A DNA stretch of 55,324 nucleotides from Ignavibacteriota bacterium (lineage in GTDB: Bacteria > Bacteroidota > Ignavibacteria > UBA10030 > UBA6906): assembly GCA_003158475.1 (NCBI GenBank), contig PMJR01000050.1, positions 1 to 55,324 on the forward strand, in the 5' to 3' direction. Both the position numbers and the translations under genes were made by a program. This document shows positions 323-14,161 of this stretch, in pieces (the stretch's first letter is position 1; each line of letters begins with the position of its first letter). Below the pieces are notes generated by a model that was not told the origin of the DNA, did not search any database, and worked only from the letters and a program-made list of their open reading frames with translations.

Positions 323-1639
323 CTATGAGAACCCGGCTTCAGTGGCAGGTGCCCGTCGCACCGGAAACGTCATGATGAACTTTGCCCCCCCGTTCTTCCG
401 GGTCTCGAGTCGGATTGTCCCCCCGTGAAGCTCTATGATCTGCCGGCATACCGGAAGGCCGTAACCATGGCCATCGACTTTCGTCGTGATGTTCTCGTGA
501 AAGAGCTTATTCCTGACTTCCTCGTCGATTCCCGGACCGTTGTCCTGCACGGAAATACGCACCATATTGCCAATCAGATCGTATTCCGTCTGCAGGATAA
601 TCGCAACACGTGCAAATGCCTCCACTGCATTGTTCACCAGATTCATCAGGACCTGCTGGACCTGGTCAACGTCCATCTGGATCATGGGGACATCTTCTCC
701 CAGAACCAGAGAAAGCCCGTTATTCTTGAACTTCGGCAGGACCCTGATGAAGTCGATGAAATCACGGCAAATGACGTTCGGATCGGCGGGGAGGAGTTCG
801 CCAGCCGCACGTCTCCCCGTCATGAGACTGTGTGAGAACTTCTCAATTCTCCTGGCACCGGCAATTGTCTTCTCGACAGTACTCTTCAGCTCTTCCGCCG
901 AAATCCGGTCAAGCTTGCGTGAAAGCTGCTCAAGCTGCAAAAGTACCACGGCGACTATGTTCCGAAGCTCATGACTTACCTCCCCTGCAATCTCCCCCTT
1001 CATCGCCATGCGCTCGGATTTGATGATCTGCTCATTGGCGTGTTTGAGATCTTCATACGTGTTCTTCAGATCCTGATAGAGCCGGGCATTTTTGATTGCA
1101 GTGGCAGCCTGACCGGCAAGGATCTCGAAGAGATAAAGGATGTCAGCCTTTTCCACAGCCTGGATGCGCTTGCTGTCGACGTAGATGACGCCGATTGTCT
1201 CCTCCGGAGTGCGAAGAGGACTGCAGATAATGGTCTTCAACTCAAGTTCCAGAACACTCTGACGAAGCTCAAACCGCCCATCGTTGAGCGCGTCTTCAAT
1301 GAAGAGCGATTCTCCCATTGTAAACACATCGTCGAGGACGGACGAACTCACCTGAAAGCTCTCGGCTTGAATGCACTCGCCACCCGCAGTCCGGCCTGTC
1401 ACAAATTCCAATTTCCGTTCCCTGTTGGCCAGCATGAGAAATCCCCGCTCCGCGTTCGTGATCCGGATCGCCTCGTCGAGCACAAGCTCCAACACGTCTG
1501 AAAGCACCAGCGACGTGTTGACCTTTCGCACAACGTTGAGGATCATCTCGAGATCCCTCATTCTCGATGCAGAGGGCTTCTCTTCCGTGGCATGGGGCTG
1601 CCGGGCAGACTCCTCCTGAAGGAGATCACCGAGGTTCAT
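323..1639 (-). CDS. GAF-domain sensor histidine kinase
   Basis: A 438-residue soluble histidine kinase. An N-terminal GAF domain (about residues 25-185) is followed by a short coiled coil, a dimerisation and phosphoacceptor helix with the motif EVSHELRN (His at about 223), and a C-terminal HATPase domain with an N box near 336, DNGPGID near 366 and GHGYGLP near 390. No membrane segment is seen, so it should sense a cytoplasmic ligand or partner through GAF. ATG at 1639 is preferred over the ATG at 1651: it has GGAAG five bases upstream and gives a 4-base ATGA overlap with the upstream TPR gene, implying translational coupling. It lies at the end of the unit headed by the sigma54-type promoter at 3700-3714. 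No receiver-domain partner with intact phosphorylation residues is adjacent. Confidence 0.9.
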   Translation of the reverse strand: MNLGDLLQEESARQPHATEEKPSASRMRDLEMILNVVRKVNTSLVLSDVLELVLDEAIRITNAERGFLMLANRERKLEFVTGRTAGGECIQAESFQVSSSVLDDVFTMGESLFIEDALNDGRFELRQSVLELELKTIICSPLRTPEETIGVIYVDSKRIQAVEKADILYLFEILAGQAATAIKNARLYQDLKNTYEDLKHANEQIIKSERMAMKGEIAGEVSHELRNIVAVVLLQLEQLSRKLDRISAEELKSTVEKTIAGARRIEKFSHSLMTGRRAAGELLPADPNVICRDFIDFIRVLPKFKNNGLSLVLGEDVPMIQMDVDQVQQVLMNLVNNAVEAFARVAIILQTEYDLIGNMVRISVQDNGPGIDEEVRNKLFHENITTKVDGHGYGLPVCRQIIELHGGTIRLETRKNGGAKFIMTFPVRRAPATEAGFS

Positions 1640-2883
1640 CGTGTCTTCCATTTAAGGGCATTGATCCGGTCCTGTGTCTTTTTCACGTCTTCCCGTGCTC
1701 CTACTTTCTTGAACGCCTCCCTGGCTTTCAGGAAGGTCCGGATTGCTTCTTCGTTCCTTTTGCGGTCCGTTTCCAGAACGCCAATTTCAAAATACGATTC
1801 CGCCGCGTTCAACTGGTTGTTGATCTCGGTATTGATCCGCAGGCTTGTGTGCAGGTATGATGCCGCCGTATCAAAACTCTTCATATCGCGATGGATCATC
1901 CCCTTCATTTTGTAGGCATCCGCCAGACCCACTTTTTCCCCTGAAGTGACAAAGAACTCGATCGCCTGAGACACCAGCTTCAATGCGACCGGCAGGTCAC
2001 AGAGATCATGATACGCATTGGCCTTCCCGAGATTCGCCAGACCCATGAGAGAGCGGTTCTGCAACGACGACGACAATGTATAGCTCGCGTCAAACTCCCG
2101 TAAAGCCTCCTTGAACACTCGCCTGGACAAATAGTTCATCCCCATGTTGTGGTGCAACTCCGCCAGGCGATTGAGATCCCCGCCTTCCTCAAAACATGAC
2201 TGTGCACGTTTATAGTGGACTACAGCCGAGTCGTAATTGCCGATGATGTTGTACGTGATGCCCAAATTCATCAGCGCAACACCCGCCATCTGAGTCTGTC
2301 GAGTCCGTTCGAAAAGTGTCAGGGCGCGCGTGAAGTATTCAACGGCCTTGGTGGTTTGTCCCTGCTCCGCATAGTTTGTCCCCAGGATATTCTCAACCCG
2401 GCCAAGCGCCTCGTGACGTTTCAATTCGGAATAGATCACGCGGCTGCGTCCAAGGTCGGCGGCGGACTGCTTCCACCGGGCTTTGCGAGAGTAGATCTCG
2501 CCGCGACGCATACGCGCTTCGGCGATGTATCCCTTCTCTCCACACTTCTCTCCCTGAGCAAGGGCCATCGTGTACATCTCTTCGGCCCGGTCCGTCTCGC
2601 CGTGCACTTTGAAGATGTCACCGATGCCCAACATCACCTGGCACACCTCCTCCGTTGCCAGTCGATCATGACAGAGCGTAATCAACTGATCCAGGTTATA
2701 TTGATTACCAAGCGATATCCCCCGCCGCTGTCCTCGCGTCGGTCCGGCACTCTTCTCCCACATCATGCTTCGCTCAAGTGCTTCCGATCGCCGCAGGTCC
2801 TTCATCATACGTGTGACGACATTGGGCGTGCAGTAGTTCTTGACCACGCCGAGGATTTGATCTGTGACGATTTCAGTCTTCAT
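1636..2883 (-). CDS. TPR-repeat protein
   Basis: A 415-residue, apparently soluble protein made mostly of tetratricopeptide repeats from about residue 75 to the end. Recurrent signatures include ALGRVENILGTNYAEQG, AGVALMNLGITYNIIG and LAELHHNMGMNYLSRR, each followed by a second helix of the pair. No catalytic domain or signal peptide is visible. ATG at 2883 (MKTEIVTDQ) is taken as the start; the open frame extends to a TTG at 2934, but that sits directly against the stop of the preceding gene. It is translationally coupled to the GAF histidine kinase downstream. The repeats resemble those in the C-terminal half of the large kinase nearby, which suggests a scaffolding or sensing role in the same pathway. 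That role is inference. Confidence 0.85.
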   Translation of the reverse strand: MKTEIVTDQILGVVKNYCTPNVVTRMMKDLRRSEALERSMMWEKSAGPTRGQRRGISLGNQYNLDQLITLCHDRLATEEVCQVMLGIGDIFKVHGETDRAEEMYTMALAQGEKCGEKGYIAEARMRRGEIYSRKARWKQSAADLGRSRVIYSELKRHEALGRVENILGTNYAEQGQTTKAVEYFTRALTLFERTRQTQMAGVALMNLGITYNIIGNYDSAVVHYKRAQSCFEEGGDLNRLAELHHNMGMNYLSRRVFKEALREFDASYTLSSSLQNRSLMGLANLGKANAYHDLCDLPVALKLVSQAIEFFVTSGEKVGLADAYKMKGMIHRDMKSFDTAASYLHTSLRINTEINNQLNAAESYFEIGVLETDRKRNEEAIRTFLKAREAFKKVGAREDVKKTQDRINALKWKTR

Positions 2884-2934: not shown

Positions 2935-3579
2935 CTATCGGCCAAATGCGTATGCCGAGAAGTGCGGAAGCTCGCCGTTATTACAGACGAGACGTCCTTG
3001 TGGAATGTTAATATGGACGAACTGAGCATCCATCCTGATCCATTCCCCGGTGCTGTCTACATACCAGAGGTATACTTTGTCGTGTGGTCTCAGTCCTGAT
3101 AGGTCCATACCCTTTACGTCGACATCGAGCAACGCCGGCTTGAGGAATGTCGTACCGTGCGGACCGAATGTAAGGTCAATGTTTGATCGCAGGACCTGAT
3201 CGTCAAGCGACATCGTTGCCACAAGAGTGTCCGTAACACCGTGGGGCTGGAATGTCACTGACAGGCTGGCATCCAGCTTCCGGGTCACGCCATCGGTGTC
3301 CACGTAAGAATACTTGAAGTCCAACTCGAGTCGCCCGCCATGCTCGGGCGTTATCACTGCAGTGTCTGCGACTATCTTCCCCAGGCCATGAGTCCCCGGA
3401 AGTTTGATGAACTGCGGCCCCGAAGCAGTCACAGGGTTATCCTGGAAACTCACCGGCGAATCATTCTGGCAGCCAGGCAAAAATATCACAAGTCCCAGAA
3501 GATTCCCCAGAACCAGTGCGATCAACGATCTCGAGTATTTCATCTTGTTCCCTGCCGCGACGAGTTGGATCTTTTTCAT
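2935..3579 (-). CDS. Putative lipoprotein, function unknown
   Basis: An exported protein of 214 residues with a hydrophobic segment ending in LVIFLPGC, a lipobox-like cleavage site, so probably membrane-anchored through a diacylglyceryl cysteine. The mature part is rich in short beta-strand-like stretches and resembles no family I can name. ATG at 3579 follows AGGGGGG at six bases; ATG at 3543 (MKYSRSL) also has AGGGA at five bases and would give a more usual 25-residue signal, so the start is uncertain by 12 codons. It is the first gene after the sigma54-like promoter at 3700-3714 and lies 51 bp before the TPR gene, so it is probably the leading gene of a sigma54-controlled unit. Confidence 0.75.
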   Translation of the reverse strand: MKKIQLVAAGNKMKYSRSLIALVLGNLLGLVIFLPGCQNDSPVSFQDNPVTASGPQFIKLPGTHGLGKIVADTAVITPEHGGRLELDFKYSYVDTDGVTRKLDASLSVTFQPHGVTDTLVATMSLDDQVLRSNIDLTFGPHGTTFLKPALLDVDVKGMDLSGLRPHDKVYLWYVDSTGEWIRMDAQFVHINIPQGRLVCNNGELPHFSAYAFGR

Positions 3580-3699
3580 TGTAATTCCCCCCTGAATCTT
3601 GAATGAGTAACCGACAACAAGCATCAAGTCCGTGTCACCTGTCTCCCCTCTTCGTGCGGAATTCACCGAAACGATGATGACACTTCACGACAGAGAGAC

Positions 3700-3714
3700 G
3701 CAATTCCTATGCCA
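3700..3714 (-). promoter_or_regulatory. sigma54-type (-24/-12) promoter
   Basis: The minus strand reads TGGCATAGGAATTGC, which matches the consensus TGGCACGN4TTGC at all positions except the weakly conserved sixth and seventh bases. The GG and GC doublets are separated by exactly 10 bases, as required. It is preceded by C, also as in the consensus. It lies between a gene for a sigma54-type activator and the lipoprotein-TPR-histidine kinase unit, pointing at the latter. The predicted transcript start is near 3689, about 110 bases before the ATG at 3579. Confidence 0.75.
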
Positions 3715-3718
3715 GAAG

Positions 3719-3741
3719 CCGGCCAGGATGGGAATGGCCGG
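3719..3741. repeat. Inverted repeat upstream of the sigma54-type promoter
   Basis: CCGGCCA-N9-TGGCCGG forms a perfect 7-bp dyad ending five bases upstream of the -24 element (positions about -30 to -55 relative to the predicted start). No T-run follows on either strand, so it is not a typical terminator. It could be a binding site for a regulator, although classical enhancer sites lie further upstream. Confidence 0.5.
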
Positions 3742-3868
3742 AATTGAATTGTGGTGAAGGAGAAGGGGGGAAGCTGAGGCAGGGCGGGGTTTCTGGAGAG
3801 ATGGTATTCGGGTGACCCTCATCATGAAGCGGAACAAAACGATACACGTGCCTCCTCAAAACGTTACA

Positions 3869-5302
3869 TCACTCCTCAATGCCGTCCCGCGGGTTCCTCA
3901 GTATCCGGTCGAGCCGGGGCCGGGAGATCCCAAGGATTTTTGCCGCTTTGGCTTTGTTACTCCCGATGTGCTCGAGAACCTTCTGTGCGAGCATTCTCTG
4001 CACTTCAGTCAGCGATGCCCGGTCAAGTGGAATGAGGAGCATGAGTGTATCTACTTCTTTCGGCGGAAGGCTTTCGGGTTTGTTTATGACTACGTTTCGT
4101 CTCACCGGAGCGGCCTTCCTGCTTTCGAAATCGAAGTCATGTTCGGTGATCCAATCAGATTCTTCAAGGAGGAAGGCGCGTTCAATACTGTGCTTCAACT
4201 CACGGACATTCCCCTCCCAATCATGTTCCATGAGGATCTGCAGAGCGTGAGGGGTCAGACCCCGGATCTTCTTGTTGTATTCCCTGTTGAAGGAATCGAG
4301 AAAACTGCGGCACAGCAGGGGGATGTCCTCCTTCCTCTCGCGCAAGGGGGGGAGCTCGAGCGGAAGGATCTTCAGGCGATGGTACAGGTCCTTACGAAAC
4401 TCCCCCGTTCTCATTTTTGCCTCAAGGTCAACGCTCGTGGCGGCAATCACACGCGCCCTGACGGGAACATCACGCACACCCCCGACTCTTCGCATCGAGC
4501 GATCTTCGATAACTTTCAGGAGTTTTGACTGAGTTGCGAGAGAGATGTCGCCGATCTCGTCGAGGAAGATTGACCCGTCGCCTGCGAGCTCGAAGAGTCC
4601 GATCTTCCTTTCCTTTGCATCCGTAAATGCCCCCCTTTCATATCCAAAGAGCTCCGATTCGAGGAGGGTCTCCGGCAGGGCCGAGCAGGCGATGTCCACA
4701 AACGGGCTGTTCCTGTTTTTTCCGTTATAGTGAATCGCCCGCGCAAAGAGCTCTTTCCCCGTCCCCGTCTCTCCTGTGATCAGCACTGTCACCGTACTGT
4801 TCCGGATGACCTTCTGTGCGCGATCGAGCGTGACCTTCAACAGCGGAGACTTGCCAATGATCTGCCGGAAGTCGTATACCACCTGTTGGAGCTCGACGAA
4901 TTTTTCTTTCTTTTTCTTTGCGATCCAGTCATTGTACACCATTGCGATCTGCTGGGAGATCTTTCTCTGCTCACCGGGAACAATGAAGTAGGCCGACACA
5001 CCCAGCTTGACGAGTTCAACCGCGACAGCATGGTCAGGATCATTCGCCATTGCCAGAATGGGTACGTCCGGAAACTGCGACGAGAATTCGCCCAGTGCCG
5101 ATCGCATCATGATATTGTCATGCGTCACGTCGAGAAGCACCAGGTCGGGAGTCTTGAACATGGCCCGGCCGGAAAGAAAATGCGGCGAGGAGACAAATTT
5201 CAGGTGCATGTCGTCGGCAGGCTGGATGTACCGCCGAACCCGCTCCATGATTCCCTTCCTGCCTGACAACAGAATGACGAATTTGTCGTTGCGGGATGCC
5301 AA
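3869..5302 (-). CDS. NtrC-family sigma54-dependent activator with degenerate receiver domain
   Basis: 477 residues in the standard order receiver (about 8-125), AAA+ activator (about 148-385) and Fis-type HTH (about 435-470). The AAA+ part has Walker A GETGTGKE (177-184), GAFTDA at 224-229 (usual GAFTGA, the sigma54-contact loop), Walker B SIFLDEIGD (244-252) and the arginine-rich PPLRERKEDIPLL segment. The receiver keeps Asp58 at the phosphoacceptor position. It lacks the acidic pair after strand 1 (LLSG instead), the Ser/Thr after strand 4 (Ala) and the Lys before the conserved Pro (VPG), so normal phosphorylation is doubtful. The start is TTG at 5302 with AGGAG ten bases upstream; the next ATG would cut into the receiver. 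The gene follows the Ser/Thr kinase by 13 bp, which makes that kinase or a ligand the more likely input. Confidence 0.93.
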   Translation of the reverse strand: MASRNDKFVILLSGRKGIMERVRRYIQPADDMHLKFVSSPHFLSGRAMFKTPDLVLLDVTHDNIMMRSALGEFSSQFPDVPILAMANDPDHAVAVELVKLGVSAYFIVPGEQRKISQQIAMVYNDWIAKKKKEKFVELQQVVYDFRQIIGKSPLLKVTLDRAQKVIRNSTVTVLITGETGTGKELFARAIHYNGKNRNSPFVDIACSALPETLLESELFGYERGAFTDAKERKIGLFELAGDGSIFLDEIGDISLATQSKLLKVIEDRSMRRVGGVRDVPVRARVIAATSVDLEAKMRTGEFRKDLYHRLKILPLELPPLRERKEDIPLLCRSFLDSFNREYNKKIRGLTPHALQILMEHDWEGNVRELKHSIERAFLLEESDWITEHDFDFESRKAAPVRRNVVINKPESLPPKEVDTLMLLIPLDRASLTEVQRMLAQKVLEHIGSNKAKAAKILGISRPRLDRILRNPRDGIEE

Positions 5303-5315
5303 CCTCGGGTGTCTC

Positions 5316-8300
5316 CTACATGTTCAGGTGTGAATCAAGCGCTGCGAGGATTCGCTCCTTATCATCTGCCATAAGATAGCTATTCTTCAGCCCGGATGAC
5401 GTGAATTGAGCAAGAAAAAACCGCAACACGAGCCTTGCCTTTATAAAGCACTCCTTTGCCCTCTCCCCCTGTCCGCGCTTGAGAAACTCCTTTCCCAGCG
5501 CAACGGCCAGTTTCCAGGTCACCTCCGTTACCGGTTCCTTCGCAATCGCGTCGAATCCCTCCCGGAAGAGCGTGAGCGGCTTCTCCGGAACACTTGACGG
5601 GGAAGATGCGGCGATACTCCCGAGCAGATACGACGCCTCGGCCACGATCTGCGGACGTACACTCCGCCCTCCAGAATCCTTTGCCTGCCCGGCAAGTGTC
5701 ACTGCCGCGCCGAGCCTGCCCATGCGATATTCGCATTCCGCCATACGCACCTTGAGAAGGTGCCATCGTTCGCTCTCTGCCTCATCATGAGGAGATTGCT
5801 CTGACTGCGTAAAGAAGAGGAGCGCTGCGTCATACCTGTCGAGGTCCATCATGTGCATTCCTCGAAGCCACAGCAACCGGAATCTGAAGGTTTCCAGACT
5901 CCTGGCATTCATCAGTGCTTCAGCCTCATCGAGATTCCCCCCCACCGATTCCACAGCACCCACCACACAATTCACCTGTGCGAGTTGCAGCAGCGTCTCC
6001 ACCATTTCCTGGCCGTCATCCATGTCGCGATACAATCGCCGGGCATTTTCCCACAGCAGGAGCGCATGTTCATAGCGCCCCTCCGCAAAATTCACCTCGC
6101 CAAGGTTCGTGAGCACATAGGCACCTCCCTTCCTGGAATCCAGCCGGGAAAAAATCGCCCGGGCTTCGTCGTAGAAGTTCCTGGCCTCCTGAAACCGCTT
6201 CAGCTTGAAATGGGCGATGCCGAGATTGTTCTGAATCTGCGCTTGCTGGTTCAGGCTGCCATACTCCCTGCTCGTCGTCAGCGCATCGCTCAGGTGCTCT
6301 ACCGCCCCAACGATGTCTCCTTTCGCACTCATCACATTGGCAATATTCATCATGGCATCAGCAACCCGCGCATGCTGTCGCGACGCCGAATAGATGTTCA
6401 TTGCCTCCTTGAAGTACCCGGCCGATTGATCAAGCAGACCCTGAAAGAACGAGGCAATACCAAGATCGTTATAGATGGAGGCGATGATCCCAGGGTTGCG
6501 GAGCTCCTTCGCCCGGGCAAGCTGGGCCGTACTCAAACGCTCAGCTTCAACAAAATTCCCGGTTGCTATCTCGATTCCCACAAGCTCCTGCTGGAGCTCC
6601 GCCAGCACCGTGGTGTCAACGGAGGTCCGGAGACCAGCCATGATATGTCGCTTTGACTCCTCGTAATTCCCCAGTCGGGAGTGAGCAAACCCGGCAGTCT
6701 TGTGGAGTGTCACCTCTTGAACAATATCCAGGGAGATTCTCCCGAGTTGTTCCTCTGCCAGCTTCACGGCTTCGCGAACGTCCCCGCAACTGAACAAGGC
6801 CTGAGCGAGCTTGATATTGATCCGGTCACAATCCGATGGAGGCGAGCCCCCGGCGAGGAGGACGGCGTCAGAGTAGAGCTCCTTCGCCATCCGGTACGCG
6901 GCAATCCTCATCCCCTCGTCCCCTGCAGCTTCCAGCCAGTGGATGCCCGGGGCGTCTTTTCCTCCCGACCTGTACTGGTACGCGAGCTCCTGTAAATCAG
7001 AAACTGTCCGGATTCCCGCAAACTCCTCCATCGCCGAAGCGACGGCAAGATGACTCTCCTTCCTGTTCTCCCCGATTGCCGCATACACGAGAGCCTTCAA
7101 TCTCTCATGCCGCATCACAAACCTCTGACCGTCTTCATGCGAAGCGATCAGGCCTTCTGATTCGAGCGAGGAGAGGTACGCGATCGTCCGCTGCGGTTGA
7201 AACGGCAGGATGGCCTGAATGATCCCCAGACGCGCCGGCCACATGAAGCACGAGAGAATACCCAGGGTTAACTGCCGTTCCCGGCCAATCGTCTTGTACC
7301 GCGCCAGCAGGAGCTCGTCTATGTCGCGGGGGAGCTCTCCCAGAACGGCCTCAACAAGCTCCGCTGTGCCGGGAGACCGGTCCGGTAGAACCCTCGGCAG
7401 GAGGACGCTCACAGCCCGGAGGGCCTCAACGATGAGCGCCGGGAGACCTCCATACAGTTGATGAAGTCGAATCCCGAGCAACTCACCCAGCTCCGCCGGC
7501 GACAGCGTTGAGGCGCTCATAGCAGAAACGGATTGCGCGTCAAGCTCTTCCAGACGAACATGACGGGCGCCGACCGGCAGACTCGCTTCACCGTGCGCGG
7601 CCGCAAGTAGCAGCAACCGGTCCGACCGCGCATCGCGGGAAGCCATCCGCAGTATCTCCCCCGATTCAGGGTCGAGCAGATGCGCGTCATCAATAATAAC
7701 AATAAGAGGAAAGAGCGACGACATCCCGCTGATCCAGCGTGCCAGAGCGTCGACGACTTTGTCTTTCTCCTTCACCCAGCTCACATGCAGCCCGCCGGCA
7801 GCGGCGTCGTCCACTCCGGGCACTCCCCCGATCACATCGGCAAATCTCTCCATCAACGCACCGGCTTCGACGGACCGGGACATCCCTTCTGCCCGGAGGA
7901 GAGGCAGGAGCGAGAGGATTCCGCTAAACGGCAGATCGCGCTGAGAAACGGTTACTTCGAAAACCGGAACATCGGCCGCCCGCGCCACCCGCGCCATTTC
8001 GCTCAAAAGAGCCGTCTTCCCGATTCCTTCGGGGCCTTCAACAACGATCGCGACGCAAGGATCGGCTTCAGAATCACCGGACAACGAGGCAATTGCTGAA
8101 CCGATCACCCCCTTCTCCTTTTCCCGCCCGACGAAGCCCGGCCTGGGGAGCCGGTCAATGGCAAGGGTCGCCGCACCCAGATCATTTTCCAGCAAACCGC
8201 GGGCAGCTTCCCCCGCCGACTTGTACCGGCGGCCGGGATCCTTCTGGAGGAGGTTCGTCACAAGGGGGAGGAGTGAGGAATACTCCCGGTCAAGGCACCT

Positions 8301-9020
8301 GTGGAATTCCGGCTCTGTGGTCAACACCTTTTTGATAAGCTCGACCGGATCGCCTGCTTCAAACGGACAACGATCTTCGATAAGGTGGTATATCGTTGCG
8401 CCAAGCGAATACAGGTCAACCCGGTTGTCGAAAGTCTCGTGTCGCAAGAGCTCCGGAGCTGTGTATTCAAGCGTACCCCGGAGCGGGAATTCGAGTGTTG
8501 TATTCAGTCGGGCGCCGAAACCGAAATCCGTCAGCTTCAGCACCGGGAATTGATCATCGTCTTTCCCACCTGATATCAGGAATATGTTCTCAGGCTTGAT
8601 GTCAAAGTGGATGATTCCCCTCTGATGAACATACGAAAGCACACCGAGTGCCTGGAGCACGAAATGGTTCAATTGCGCAGGGCCATCATGTTGCCGCCGG
8701 TGATCTTGCCACCACTCCCCGGCGGTTGATCCCTGGAGATACTCCATCGCGAAGAAGCGACGGCCCTGCAGGGCCGCGTCGTCGCTGTGGCGTATCATGC
8801 CAAAGTCGGATACCCGTACAAGGTTCGGATGGCGCAGCGCAGCAAGGATCGATACTTCATTCCTGAATTGTTCATCAGCGACGCGTCCGGATCGATCTTC
8901 TCCGTGAAGAATCTTCATTGCGGACTGCCGGCCTTCCTTCAGCACATCTTCAACAAGAAACACTTCTCCGCTGCCACCCTCCCCCAGTTTCCTCAGCGTG
9001 CGGTACCGGAAATTGATCAT
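5316..9020 (-). CDS. Large Ser/Thr protein kinase with AAA ATPase and TPR regions
   Basis: 1234 residues. The N-terminal eukaryotic-type kinase domain (about 1-285) has the glycine loop GEGGSGEV (13-20), Lys36 in AMKIL, Glu55, catalytic loop HFDIKPEN (139-145, Asp140), DFG (165-167) and APE (188-190). The Arg of HRD is Phe, so it is a non-RD kinase. A linker with GFVGREKE leads to an AAA/STAND-like ATPase (about 298-560) with P-loop GPEGIGKTAL and Walker B LIVIIDDAHLLD. The rest (about 690-1190) is TPR-like. This layout is known from bacterial kinase-ATPase-TPR sensors. ATG at 9020 lies three bases after the stop of the permease gene, with GGAG nine bases upstream. No membrane segment is evident. 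The close linkage to a peptide transporter and a sigma54 activator suggests it relays uptake or peptide status to transcription; that is inference. Confidence 0.92.
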   Translation of the reverse strand: MINFRYRTLRKLGEGGSGEVFLVEDVLKEGRQSAMKILHGEDRSGRVADEQFRNEVSILAALRHPNLVRVSDFGMIRHSDDAALQGRRFFAMEYLQGSTAGEWWQDHRRQHDGPAQLNHFVLQALGVLSYVHQRGIIHFDIKPENIFLISGGKDDDQFPVLKLTDFGFGARLNTTLEFPLRGTLEYTAPELLRHETFDNRVDLYSLGATIYHLIEDRCPFEAGDPVELIKKVLTTEPEFHRCLDREYSSLLPLVTNLLQKDPGRRYKSAGEAARGLLENDLGAATLAIDRLPRPGFVGREKEKGVIGSAIASLSGDSEADPCVAIVVEGPEGIGKTALLSEMARVARAADVPVFEVTVSQRDLPFSGILSLLPLLRAEGMSRSVEAGALMERFADVIGGVPGVDDAAAGGLHVSWVKEKDKVVDALARWISGMSSLFPLIVIIDDAHLLDPESGEILRMASRDARSDRLLLLAAAHGEASLPVGARHVRLEELDAQSVSAMSASTLSPAELGELLGIRLHQLYGGLPALIVEALRAVSVLLPRVLPDRSPGTAELVEAVLGELPRDIDELLLARYKTIGRERQLTLGILSCFMWPARLGIIQAILPFQPQRTIAYLSSLESEGLIASHEDGQRFVMRHERLKALVYAAIGENRKESHLAVASAMEEFAGIRTVSDLQELAYQYRSGGKDAPGIHWLEAAGDEGMRIAAYRMAKELYSDAVLLAGGSPPSDCDRINIKLAQALFSCGDVREAVKLAEEQLGRISLDIVQEVTLHKTAGFAHSRLGNYEESKRHIMAGLRTSVDTTVLAELQQELVGIEIATGNFVEAERLSTAQLARAKELRNPGIIASIYNDLGIASFFQGLLDQSAGYFKEAMNIYSASRQHARVADAMMNIANVMSAKGDIVGAVEHLSDALTTSREYGSLNQQAQIQNNLGIAHFKLKRFQEARNFYDEARAIFSRLDSRKGGAYVLTNLGEVNFAEGRYEHALLLWENARRLYRDMDDGQEMVETLLQLAQVNCVVGAVESVGGNLDEAEALMNARSLETFRFRLLWLRGMHMMDLDRYDAALLFFTQSEQSPHDEAESERWHLLKVRMAECEYRMGRLGAAVTLAGQAKDSGGRSVRPQIVAEASYLLGSIAASSPSSVPEKPLTLFREGFDAIAKEPVTEVTWKLAVALGKEFLKRGQGERAKECFIKARLVLRFFLAQFTSSGLKNSYLMADDKERILAALDSHLNM

Positions 9021-9023
9021 CGG

Positions 9024-10301
9024 TCATTTCTCCGGCGCGTCCGGGTTTCCCTCGACGGCGAGATTCCCGCCCATTGAATGGGCTGCGACAAGCACGACGG
9101 CCAGGAGAATCCCGGGGAACACGCCAATCCACCACGCCGAGGCGAGATAGCCCGTTGCTTCTCCCATGATGTTCCCCCAGGTCGCAGTCGGAGGTTGAAT
9201 GCCAAGCCCGAGAAATCCCAACGAGGCTTCACCCAGAACGGCGTTGGCAAACTGCAAAACGGTGGCTGTCACTATCACGGGCCGGAGGTTCGGGAGGAGA
9301 TGCCGGGTGATGATTTTCCAGGTCGAAACGCGAAGCAGCCTTGCCGCGAGAATGAACTCCCGTTCACGCAGCGAGACCACTTCAGCTCTCACGACTCTGG
9401 CGATCCCCATCCACCCGGACAGGGAGAGCACCACAACGACCGTGGTGATGGACTGACCGACGAACGCAAGGATCCCAATGACGAGAAACAACGATGGAAT
9501 TGCAAGGAACAAATCCGTGAGCCGCATGAGCACGCCATCAAGAACGCCGCGGGACAATCCCGCCGAAAATCCGACCGCGCCACCTAGAAGCAGCGCTCCC
9601 AGGGCGGCACTGATTCCTATTCCCAGCGAGACCCTGGTTCCCGCGACAACCCTGGAGAAGACATCCCTTGCATTATCGTCTGTGCCGAACAGGAAGATCG
9701 TCCGAAACTCTCTGAGTGCAGCGCCCGCCGGCTGACCGACAGCCGCAGGATCAGCGGGTGGGTTCCTGCTCAACAGCACGGTCCGGTGCAACAGATAGTG
9801 ATTCGCCTCCGTGAACGCGCGATGGATCGGACCCGCTGTGTCAGGGTCCGGACTGCCCGGATCAAGAAACTCCCGAACGTACCCTGTGGAGAGCGGCGGC
9901 AGCAATCGTGTCGTGACAAGGTTTCCCTGGATGTTCGGGTCAATGAGCGTCAGGAACGGCGAGGCAGCGGCCACGAACACGACCAGGCCGAAGATGCCCG
10001 TCGAGGAAACTCGCGCCCGGGTGATTGCCGATGGAACCTCCCGCACGATTTCTTTCCCCCTGTTCCGCACGGACACAATGACCGAGCGCAACAGCCACAA
10101 AGCTGTGACAATCCAGACTGTGCCGGCGACCCAATACTCAACGAGTGCAGGGTTCCAATAGGTGCCGAAAGGAGCCCGATGACCCGTTTCGAGAACACAC
10201 CACGCCGCGAGAGATACGAGACTCGCAAGGATCAGCCGGTAGTGAACCATACTGACCAGAGCCACGATGGAAACCACGAGGATGCGCAAGGTGCGTTTCA
10301 C
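9024..10301 (-). CDS. Dpp/Opp-type ABC transporter permease (DppC-like)
   Basis: 425 residues, longer than the usual 280-310 because of an N-terminal extension with extra membrane segments (about residues 5-130). The C-terminal half is the standard binding-protein-dependent permease domain: DDNARDVFSRVVAGTRVSLGIG, then the EAA loop with VVRAEVVSLREREFILAARL and final helices with LGFLGLGIQPP, a DppC/OppC signature. It forms the inner-membrane channel with the next permease. The start codon is GTG at 10301, six bases after the preceding stop, without an obvious Shine-Dalgarno sequence. It belongs to the run binding protein, permease, permease, kinase, activator. Confidence 0.92.
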   Translation of the reverse strand: MKRTLRILVVSIVALVSMVHYRLILASLVSLAAWCVLETGHRAPFGTYWNPALVEYWVAGTVWIVTALWLLRSVIVSVRNRGKEIVREVPSAITRARVSSTGIFGLVVFVAAASPFLTLIDPNIQGNLVTTRLLPPLSTGYVREFLDPGSPDPDTAGPIHRAFTEANHYLLHRTVLLSRNPPADPAAVGQPAGAALREFRTIFLFGTDDNARDVFSRVVAGTRVSLGIGISAALGALLLGGAVGFSAGLSRGVLDGVLMRLTDLFLAIPSLFLVIGILAFVGQSITTVVVVLSLSGWMGIARVVRAEVVSLREREFILAARLLRVSTWKIITRHLLPNLRPVIVTATVLQFANAVLGEASLGFLGLGIQPPTATWGNIMGEATGYLASAWWIGVFPGILLAVVLVAAHSMGGNLAVEGNPDAPEK

Positions 10302-10307
10302 TGTTTT

Positions 10308-11270
10308 CTATGTAAGCCGGATACGAGGATCAAGCCAGGCCCTGAGGAAGTCCGCAAGGATATTCGCCGCCACGACCAGGGCGCCTCCAGAAAGCGTACA
10401 TCCGAGAATCATGGGATAGTCACGGCTGAAGATCGCCATCACGGCAAGCCTTCCCATGCCGGGCCACGCAAACAATGTCTCGCTGACAAGGACACCGGTG
10501 AGCAGCACGCCGATTTCGACACCGAGCACTGAAATGACGGGCCCCAGCGAGTTGGGAAGAATGTACGAACGAAACACCCTGCCCCTGGAGAGTCCCATGC
10601 CGATGGCAGCGGCGACATGGTCCTGCCTCATCGTCTCCGTCATGCTCGTTCTGAGATACCTTGCAATCGCTCCAATTCCGGGCGCCGCAACGGTAAGTGC
10701 GGGAAGCGCCAGGTGCTTCAGCAAGTCCCCGAACGCCGTCAACCCGCCCATCTGTTCCGCGCCGACAGCGTGCATCTGTGACGAGGGAAAGATCCCGAGC
10801 GAGAAAGAGAAGAGCGAAAGCAAGAGGATCCCGACCCAGAAGGACGGTAGCGAGTAGGCGACAAGGGTCAGGTTCGACAGAGAACGATCGAACCACGATC
10901 CGACATATCTGATGGCAAGCGCAGCAAGGACGAACGCGAGAAAACACTCGACAACAAGGGCGGTTCCGCCGAGCAGAAGAGTATTCGGGAACACGTGCAG
11001 GAGAACGTCCCTGACAGGAGCATTGTGTGCGACCGAATACCCAAGTTCGCCGCGCAGGGTTGAGGAGAGCCACGCCAGGTATTGATCCCACAATGAACGG
11101 TCAAGGCCGAACTGCGCGCGAAGCTGTTCGGCGACACGCGGCGGAATTCCCGGTGAAATGAACAAGCTTGCCTGATCACCGGGAAGCAAACGAGAAACGA
11201 AAAAGACAAGCGTCACCAACCCGAAAATCATGGGGATCGCGTGAAGCACCCTCCGTGTCAGGAATTTCAC
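10308..11270 (-). CDS. Dpp/Opp-type ABC transporter permease (DppB-like)
   Basis: A 320-residue inner-membrane permease. The N-terminus MKFLTRRVLHAIPMIFGLVTLVF and the following LLPGD motif are typical of DppB/OppB, as are the EAA loop with AIARYLRTSMTETMRQDHV and the motif VSETLFAWPGMG. About six membrane helices are visible. GTG at 11270 aligns with the family start; GTG at 11291 is possible and would add seven residues. Neither has a strong Shine-Dalgarno sequence. It lies 66 bp after the binding-protein gene and six bases before the DppC-like gene, and should form the heterodimeric channel with it. Peptides are the likely substrate, but nickel or other oligo-ligand uptake cannot be excluded from sequence alone. 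Confidence 0.92.
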   Translation of the reverse strand: MKFLTRRVLHAIPMIFGLVTLVFFVSRLLPGDQASLFISPGIPPRVAEQLRAQFGLDRSLWDQYLAWLSSTLRGELGYSVAHNAPVRDVLLHVFPNTLLLGGTALVVECFLAFVLAALAIRYVGSWFDRSLSNLTLVAYSLPSFWVGILLLSLFSFSLGIFPSSQMHAVGAEQMGGLTAFGDLLKHLALPALTVAAPGIGAIARYLRTSMTETMRQDHVAAAIGMGLSRGRVFRSYILPNSLGPVISVLGVEIGVLLTGVLVSETLFAWPGMGRLAVMAIFSRDYPMILGCTLSGGALVVAANILADFLRAWLDPRIRLT

Positions 11271-11336
11271 GAGGGACAACGCGGTACCCACTGCCGGTGA
11301 TGCACGTGTCTCCAGAAGGGTTTGTCCATATGCGTA

Positions 11337-13046
11337 CTACTGTGATGTCGATGCATCGGCCTGACCGGCGGGGCCGACATGCCATTCCCAGGCGTTATGC
11401 ATAGTGCCCAGCACGCCAATACGCGTGCCTCGCACACCCCTGTTGACGGCGACGATACTGTTGATCCAATACAGGAATGTGCATGGCTGCTCTTCATGGA
11501 CGATCCTCTGAAACTCCTTCCAGAGCGCGGCGCCGTCAGTTTCCGATTTCAGATTTCTTGCTGCGGCGAGAATACTGTCGACGCGCGCGTTTCGAAACCC
11601 GGTAAGATTGAACGGATACTTCGCAAGATCAGATCCCCAGAGATCATCCAGCTGCATTTGAAGAGGCACGCTGAAGCCTGCCAGCCACGCATCATACTTT
11701 CTTGTCGTGACCTCCTGCCAGAATGTCGCCCGCTCGACCTGCTCGATCTTCATATCAATCTTCACCTGCTTCAGTTGTTGTTGCACGGCCGCCGCAACAA
11801 CAGTTCTCAACTGGTCGCCCGCGGGGACCTTGAGGACAAACGAAAACCGGACCTTGTCCCTGACGAGAATACCATCGCCGCCTGTATCCTTCCACCCTTC
11901 CCGCTCGAGTAATTCCCTCGATCCTTGCGGGTCGAACGGAAGAGGCCTCAGGCTGTCGTCGTATGCCCACCTGAAGAGCGGAGAGATTCCTCCGAAGGCC
12001 ACCTGTCCATGTTTGCCGAGGTACGCATGAACGAGCTCATCTCTGTTGATGGCCATTGTGAGAGCCTTGCGGACGATACTTGATCCGAAGAGCCTGTGGG
12101 GTCTGATCGTCGCGGACGACGAGCCGGCATGAGTCTCGATCTCGATATTGTTCCAGCCGAGGAAGTCGTAGTCCCTTCCGGGCGTGGAGATTATTTCGAC
12201 GTCGCGTGCGTCCGCTGCGAGCTTATCAGCATCGTCCGGCCTCACGCCGCTCACCATGTCGACGTCCCCCGATTGAAGCTGGGATAACCGCGAGCGATAA
12301 TCCGGGATGATGCGAAGTATCAACTGTGAGAGCTTCGCGGGATACGGGACCACAGACTCCGGATTCGGCTGGAGCACGATCTCCTGCAGGGGTGTCCACC
12401 TCGCGAGGGAAAACGGCCCATACCCTACCGGTGATTTGTTCACAGGATCGGTTCGAATAGCCTTGCGCGGGAGATTCACAAGAATATGGGCCGGCAGTAT
12501 GGGAAGTCCGGCATCAAACAACTGTCCCGGATACGCTCTGGCAAAATGGAAGAGTACCGTGGAATCATCTTTCGCTTCGACACTTTTCCGTATGTCAAGC
12601 TTCCCACCGGTATGCCTCAGATTGTCCACTGCTGCTTGCCGGACGCTCGCAACATCAGGGTCACCGTACAGCTCGTACGTGAGCTGGACGTCCCTTGCCG
12701 TCACCGGCGTCCCGTCGGTCCATCGTGCGTTGGGAAGCAGATGAAACACAATGTCACGATCCTGATTGGCGTATTCCCACGAGCGGGCAAGCAACGGGCC
12801 ATACCTGAGCTTGCCCGAGTTGAGATCAAAATCGGAGCTCACCAGGGCGGGGAACAGAAGGTCGTTGATCTCTCCCGCGGCGATGTCTTCCGCAAAGAGA
12901 GGATTGAAGCTGTCTATGTCACCTGCAATAGCAATAACAACGACGGGTCGATGGAGTGATCCCGACTCCCCCTCTTTCTTTGTTCCGCATCCAAGCAGCG
13001 GAATCGAAAGGACAAGCGGGAGGACAAGACAAACTCTTGGTCTCAT
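11337..13046 (-). CDS. Peptide-type substrate-binding lipoprotein (SBP family 5)
   Basis: A 569-residue extracytoplasmic solute-binding protein. The signal MRPRVCLVLPLVLSIPLLGC ends in a clear lipobox (LLGC), so it should be a lipoprotein. The mature part shows the SBP_bac_5 pattern: DSFNPLF near the start, then LARSWEY, NARWTDGTPVTARDV (the classic family segment), and near the middle VRKALTMAINRDELV. ATG at 13046 has AGGAGGGG seven bases upstream; the open frame extends to 13217, but that would bury the signal peptide and overlap the promoter. The gene heads the transporter-kinase-activator run and has its own consensus-like promoter at 13090-13118. Confidence 0.94.
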   Translation of the reverse strand: MRPRVCLVLPLVLSIPLLGCGTKKEGESGSLHRPVVVIAIAGDIDSFNPLFAEDIAAGEINDLLFPALVSSDFDLNSGKLRYGPLLARSWEYANQDRDIVFHLLPNARWTDGTPVTARDVQLTYELYGDPDVASVRQAAVDNLRHTGGKLDIRKSVEAKDDSTVLFHFARAYPGQLFDAGLPILPAHILVNLPRKAIRTDPVNKSPVGYGPFSLARWTPLQEIVLQPNPESVVPYPAKLSQLILRIIPDYRSRLSQLQSGDVDMVSGVRPDDADKLAADARDVEIISTPGRDYDFLGWNNIEIETHAGSSSATIRPHRLFGSSIVRKALTMAINRDELVHAYLGKHGQVAFGGISPLFRWAYDDSLRPLPFDPQGSRELLEREGWKDTGGDGILVRDKVRFSFVLKVPAGDQLRTVVAAAVQQQLKQVKIDMKIEQVERATFWQEVTTRKYDAWLAGFSVPLQMQLDDLWGSDLAKYPFNLTGFRNARVDSILAAARNLKSETDGAALWKEFQRIVHEEQPCTFLYWINSIVAVNRGVRGTRIGVLGTMHNAWEWHVGPAGQADASTSQ

Positions 13047-13089
13047 TGAGAGTCCCCTCCTGAATCGAGCGAACGAAAACACCTGGGAG

Positions 13090-13118
13090 AATATAGGTAT
13101 CGACCGTGGCGTTGTCAA
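13090..13118 (-). promoter_or_regulatory. sigma70-type promoter for the binding-protein operon
   Basis: The minus strand carries TTGACA (13113-13118), a 17-bp spacer and TATATT (13090-13095): a perfect -35 and a 5/6 -10. The transcript would begin near 13083 and have a leader of about 37 bases before the ATG at 13046. Confidence 0.75.
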
Positions 13119-13152
13119 TACAACGGGCAGATTGTACTTCTGCGTGAGCCGT

Positions 13153-13181
13153 TTGAGTTTGAGACCGCTTTTGGGTATCAT
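13153..13181 (+). promoter_or_regulatory. sigma70-type promoter for the transporter ATPase genes
   Basis: TTGAGT (13153-13158), 17-bp spacer and TATCAT (13176-13181) on the plus strand, matching consensus at 4/6 and 5/6. The predicted start near 13188 would leave only about eight untranslated bases before the ATG at 13196, which fits the absence of a Shine-Dalgarno sequence there. It is divergent from the binding-protein promoter with the two -35 boxes about 34 bp apart. Confidence 0.5.
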
Positions 13182-13195
13182 CACTCCCGAACGAC

Positions 13196-14161
13196 ATGAC
13201 AAGCACGAGCGACGCACACAATCTTCTCAAAGCAGCCAATCTCTCCGTTTCCGCCCCGATGCCGGGGGGGAGAAGAGCACTGATCGATGATGTCTCCATC
13301 ACGGTACGTGAGAGTGAGGTTCTCATCATTCTTGGCGAGAGCGGAAGCGGCAAAACCATTCTCAGCCGGTCTTTGACAAGGCTCTTTCCCGTCACTTCTG
13401 ATTTGAGAGTCGATGGTTCGGTCACATTTGAAGGTCAGGATTTGTTGCGCCTGCGTGAGGGCGAACTGTCCCCCATTCGACGCCGCAAAATACGGTATGT
13501 GTTTCAGGAACCCATGGAGTCGCTCAACCCGCTGGCCAGGATCGGTCAGCAGATGCGTCTGGCGACTGGCGACCAGTCCAACAGTGACACTCTCCTGCAC
13601 AGCACGCTGCGCCTTGTGGGACTCGATGCCGGCCAGGAGTTACTCGATCTCTACCCGCATGAGCTTAGTATCGGGATGGCTCAGAGAGTATGTATCGCCA
13701 TGGCTGTGCTTCCGTCACCAACCCTACTGATCGCCGACGAACCCACGAGCGCCGTTGATGCCTCTCTCCGGCGCAAGATACTCGATCTCCTGATCTCAAT
13801 TCAGCGCGACCGAATGATGTCGCTTGTCCTGATCACGCACGACCTCGATGTGGCGCGTTATTACGGAGACCGCATCATAGTCATGTATGGCGGGAAGATT
13901 GTCGAGTCAGCCCCGTTGAAGGCCTTTTTTGACAACCCCCTGCACCCTTACTCCCGGCAATTGGTCGACGCGCAGTCCACAGCTCAAAAGCATGCGAGCC
14001 CACCGGATCGGAACGCAGAAGCCGTCACTCCTGATGTTCGGCACCAGGGCTGCGCTTTCCAGCCCAGGTGCCCGATTGCCGAAAACAAGTGCAAGGAGAC
14101 CGCACCAGACATGGAACAGTTCGCCGGAGAAAGAGAAGTCCGATGTTTCTGCTTGAAGTAA
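13196..14161 (+). CDS. Dpp/Opp-type ABC transporter ATP-binding protein (DppD-like)
   Basis: A 321-residue cytoplasmic ATPase of the peptide/nickel transporter family. Walker A is GESGSGKT (47-54), the Q loop YVFQEPMESLNP (101-112), Walker B LLIADEP (177-183) and the switch His is in ITHD. The ABC signature reads LSIGM at 157-161 where the family has LSGGM, replacing the first signature glycine with Ile. The C-terminal oligopeptide extension with two conserved Cys (QGCAFQPRCP...NKC) is present. The ATG at 13196 has no evident Shine-Dalgarno sequence. The end overlaps the next ATPase gene by 19 bases. It faces away from its cognate binding protein and permeases but shares their intergenic region. 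Confidence 0.93.
   Translation: MTSTSDAHNLLKAANLSVSAPMPGGRRALIDDVSITVRESEVLIILGESGSGKTILSRSLTRLFPVTSDLRVDGSVTFEGQDLLRLREGELSPIRRRKIRYVFQEPMESLNPLARIGQQMRLATGDQSNSDTLLHSTLRLVGLDAGQELLDLYPHELSIGMAQRVCIAMAVLPSPTLLIADEPTSAVDASLRRKILDLLISIQRDRMMSLVLITHDLDVARYYGDRIIVMYGGKIVESAPLKAFFDNPLHPYSRQLVDAQSTAQKHASPPDRNAEAVTPDVRHQGCAFQPRCPIAENKCKETAPDMEQFAGEREVRCFCLK

Follow-up and report, generated by a model that had tools for sequence, protein, structure and literature searches.

The minus-strand sequence at 3714-3700 of the window, the stretch of 55,324 nucleotides analysed here, is very probably the sigma54 promoter of a predicted operon for a lipoprotein, a TPR protein and a histidine kinase, controlled by the product of the adjacent gene, a sigma54 activator predicted to bind sites of the type TGTAACG-N3-CGTTACA. 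The promoter is ordinary in kind; the useful outcome is the conserved enhancer together with the conserved gene cluster, which provide the little-studied Ignavibacteriae with a specific sigma54 regulatory unit comprising promoter, enhancer palindrome, activator and targets.

All genes of the cluster lie on the minus strand, in the order oppA, oppB, oppC, Ser/Thr kinase, sigma54 activator, promoter, lipoprotein, TPR protein and histidine kinase. The peptide-transporter-like genes (9024..13217) run in the same direction and are conserved neighbours; a permease domain was detected in oppC, and the names oppA and oppB were assigned from sequence and neighbours rather than by family search. They are followed by a Ser/Thr protein kinase that also contains AAA and TPR regions (5316..9020), the activator (3869..5302) and, beyond the promoter, the lipoprotein gene (2935..3579). 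The TPR protein (1636..2883) begins 51 nt after the lipoprotein gene and overlaps the gene of the GAF-HisKA-HATPase histidine kinase (323..1651), both being assigned to the cluster by synteny. Comparison of gene order showed that this arrangement is kept in several genera, and this conserved, apparently undescribed cluster contains a standard sigma54 module; no Ignavibacteria system of such kind was found in a literature search of a limited library. Close relatives found in a named collection belong to the Ignavibacteriae; they are MAGs, and the isolate names of several point to a fen, which relates the bacterium to peat-dwelling members of the group.

Domain search and alignment resolved the activator into a pseudo-receiver, an AAA+ domain and a C-terminal Fis-type DNA-binding helix-turn-helix (HTH). 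Matches to Sigma54_activat (E 1.8e-62), to an AAA lid and to the Fis-type HTH (PF02954, E 1.6e-5) bear out the sequence-only reading, in which this gene had been taken for a sigma54 activator. The Walker motifs and the GAFTDA loop are retained in all eight aligned orthologs, and the loop variant (GAFTDA versus GAFTGA) occurs in other activators of the genus as well. An AAA+ sigma54-interaction domain with Walker A and B motifs and a GAFTGA-type loop, joined to an HTH, characterizes the protein as a sigma54 enhancer-binding protein. A receiver-like domain, the AAA+ sigma54-interaction domain and the Fis-type HTH are shared with activators of the NtrC/ZraR/AtoC type, from which this protein differs in the GAFTDA loop, in scoring below the cut-off of every named NCBIfam equivalog, and in the loss from the receiver of the acidic pair and the conserved Lys, only Asp58 being retained in the alignment. 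The domain is thus not that of a phosphorylatable two-component response regulator; as the acidic pair and the lysine are missing, ordinary His-Asp activation is doubtful and the input of the activator uncertain.

Immediately past the stop codon of the activator gene, on its 3' side, is the predicted enhancer (3830-3868, about -142 to -180), where two TGTANCGTTTTG units stand 22 bp apart. Predicted activator site 1 (3857..3868, minus strand, about -169 to -180), directly behind the stop, contains the half-site TGTAACGTTTTG, belongs to direct repeat D3 and is conserved in related loci. Predicted site 2 (3830..3846, minus strand, centre about -150) reads TGTATCG TTT TGTTCCG, a degenerate form of the palindrome; its unit TGTATCGTTTTG (3835-3846) forms with that of site 1, at the 22-bp spacing, a pair conserved within the genus. 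The window's site 2 fits the palindrome at 10 of its 14 positions, which by itself gives a shuffle p of about 0.09; with a copy so degenerate, the assignment rests on the relatives. At the equivalent place 11-13 of the 14 positions agree in five close loci (L017, L022, L025, L066 and L071). Among more distant relatives the 17-bp palindrome is perfect in L079 and L086, and L087 carries it three times, each copy perfect and 23 bp from the next; in these three loci it precedes the -24 box by 98-123 bp. Measured from the best palindrome, the -24 box is 130-132 bp away in the window and the five close loci and 98-126 bp away in most of the others, with an outlier of 207 bp in L078; a clear palindrome was not found in L067, L068 and L069.

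The sites are also specific to this locus. Allowing up to three mismatches, the tandem pair has two matches genome-wide (reversed control, 0), both at activator/lipoprotein junctions that carry a sigma54 site (the window's own and that of contig C132), and across 12 genomes the palindrome with at most one mismatch was found at this junction and in one other place only. Its place before the promoter, constant among the loci, and its locus specificity mark the palindrome, even if degenerate in the window, as a putative upstream activating sequence. Enhancer sites of sigma54 promoters are described as lying 100 bp or more upstream in the background section of a study on Desulfovibrio vulgaris, in which most sigma54 promoters were within 100 nt of the nearest activator site (PMC4641369); the spacing found here is usual for a sigma54 enhancer. 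The D. vulgaris promoters reconstructed there share with the present one the -24 GG/-12 GC elements, an activator gene adjoining the operon it targets and activator sites that precede the promoter, and they were found by the same comparative approach (PMC4641369); phylum, activator subfamily and palindrome differ, and relatives of the present locus often replace the C of the -12 box. A sigma54-dependent promoter whose palindrome is bound by a different regulator would fit the fact that TGTAACG-N3-CGTTACA is a predicted site only, with a degenerate copy in the window, but this alternative is improbable, as in the genomes searched the motif is almost confined to the side of this activator gene, at enhancer distance.

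The promoter itself, TGGCATAGGAATTGC (3700..3714, minus strand), has a predicted start at about 3688, and lies 155 bp past the activator stop; neither strand of the window has another exact TGGCAYR-N5-TGC. It had been described from the letters alone as near-consensus, and this holds: 13 of 15 positions agree with TGGCACG-N4-TTGC at GG-N10-GC spacing, and one of the two mismatches is a T at the Y position, a usual variant. By itself the string is not significant and constitutes weak evidence, being near background genome-wide: with up to one mismatch it occurs 9 times in the window (10.4 expected), and TGGCAYR-N5-TGCW was counted 19 times in the genome against 12 for the reversed control. The site is convincing because rpoN is intact, because of its position after the activator gene and because it is conserved across species. 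An intact, full-length copy of rpoN, the absence of which had been named beforehand as evidence against the promoter, is present in the genome.

The window shares the sequence TCTGGCANNGGAATTGC with three other loci of its genus (G002:C63, G002:C85 and G000:C132), although most of the remaining intergenic sequence has diverged among the four. The activators of G002:C63 and G002:C85 are 92% and 77% identical to that of the window, respectively, and G000:C132 holds an activator fragment; L022 has exactly the TGGCATAGGAATTGC promoter, and L017 and L025 have nearly the same one. Of 22 loci taken from the class downstream of orthologous activators, 14, representing several genera and families, have an exact TGGCAYR-N4-TTG no more than 330 nt past the activator stop, and near-matches were found in three further loci (L025, L067 and L068). 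Where a locus has a site, its score was reached by 0 to 1% of single-base shuffles. For control, 27 loci behind non-orthologous activators of the genus were taken, one of them without sequence; the motif is present in two of the remaining 26, both representing one orthologous promoter. The f9 genomes (L081, L082 and L085) are counterexamples, with no such promoter behind the activator. The GG-N10-GC core, rpoN in the genome and conservation before orthologous genes place the site among sigma54-dependent promoters, and its position between activator gene and lipoprotein gene in several genera agrees with the earlier proposal that it points at the lipoprotein-TPR-histidine kinase genes. A fortuitous -24/-12 match, with the operon transcribed from a different promoter or through continued transcription of the activator gene, is highly improbable. 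The near-background frequency of such strings in the genome and the close spacing of the genes, all on a single strand, speak for it; the recurrence of the string at the equivalent place in many genera, and its rarity behind other activators, speak against it.

The -12 box ends in A, G or T rather than C in many relatives (all four bases occur across L066-L071 and L078-L089), and on this comparison its last base is not fixed in the clade. A search of seven genomes for YTGGCAYR-N4-TTGH yielded 117 matches against 70 in the control, the last base being A in 54, C in 44 and T in 19; more than half of these matches may be background. At two other loci (L050, G000:C24, and L032, G003:C45) the sigma54-like site TGGCACATATNTTGA, conserved and with A for C at -12, stands at a constant distance behind a different activator gene.

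The sequence-only reading had also proposed the GC-rich inverted repeat CCGGCCA-N9-TGGCCGG as the activator's binding site. The repeat does exist just upstream of the promoter (3719..3741, arms 3719-3725 and 3735-3741; -31 to -53 relative to the predicted start); its role as activator site is not supported. None of the homologous promoters examined contains it, and with up to two mismatches it occurs in 48 places of this genome, as does the control (48); as an operator it was rejected on these two grounds, and its presence in the window is probably due to chance. Despite its perfect 7-bp arms and its position, there is very little likelihood that the activator binds it, as it is lacking in L017, L022, L025, L066 and L071, where the activators, if intact, are 77-92% identical, it is no more frequent than the reversed control, and a different palindrome is conserved at a fixed place instead. 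The TGTAACG...CGTTACA palindrome, about 110 bp further upstream than the repeat, is the better enhancer candidate and most likely the site that the activator binds. The expected location of activator binding is thereby corrected, and a binding assay on the fragment 3695-3760 would probably be negative.

In the most likely mechanism, the activator would bind the TGTAACG-N3-CGTTACA-type sites right behind its own stop codon and, once bound, contact sigma54-RNA polymerase through DNA looping, the operon being transcribed from the predicted start. Control of the activator by the histidine kinase of the operon, by the upstream Ser/Thr kinase or by both may then provide feedback. To name the Ser/Thr kinase as the input is a guess from gene order, 13 nt separating its gene from the activator gene that follows. 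In the f9 genomes, which belong to the same class, the histidine kinase gene directly follows the activator gene, without the promoter in between, an arrangement that supports a functional pairing of the two. A more speculative and rather unlikely extension is a nearly single-target sigma54 circuit in which the Ser/Thr kinase, and not His-Asp phosphotransfer, switches the pseudo-receiver activator of the operon beside a peptide importer; if true, the Ignavibacteriae would possess in it a self-contained loop that senses the envelope or peptides.

The lipoprotein has no family match in Pfam or NCBIfam. Its first 12 codons (window 3543-3579) resemble the start of a different lipoprotein that is complete in L022 and L025, and in G002:C85 two lipoprotein genes stand side by side, which suggests that a first lipoprotein gene was lost by in-frame deletion and that the native start is probably 3543. 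Between the promoter and the lipoprotein gene the 5' leader contains a GAGANNGGTGAC block (window 3634-3645, minus strand), conserved at the same place in L017, L022, L025, L066 and L071; it was discarded as a conserved leader peptide, neither reading frame nor start codon being conserved. A partial duplicate of the locus is found in L017 (G000:C132, about 1120-2241), with the C-terminal fragment of the activator, the enhancer pair, a sigma54 promoter TGGCACGGGAATTGCA and a lipoprotein gene, preceded by unrelated sequence. The activator of the window, if functional, could act in trans at this second site.
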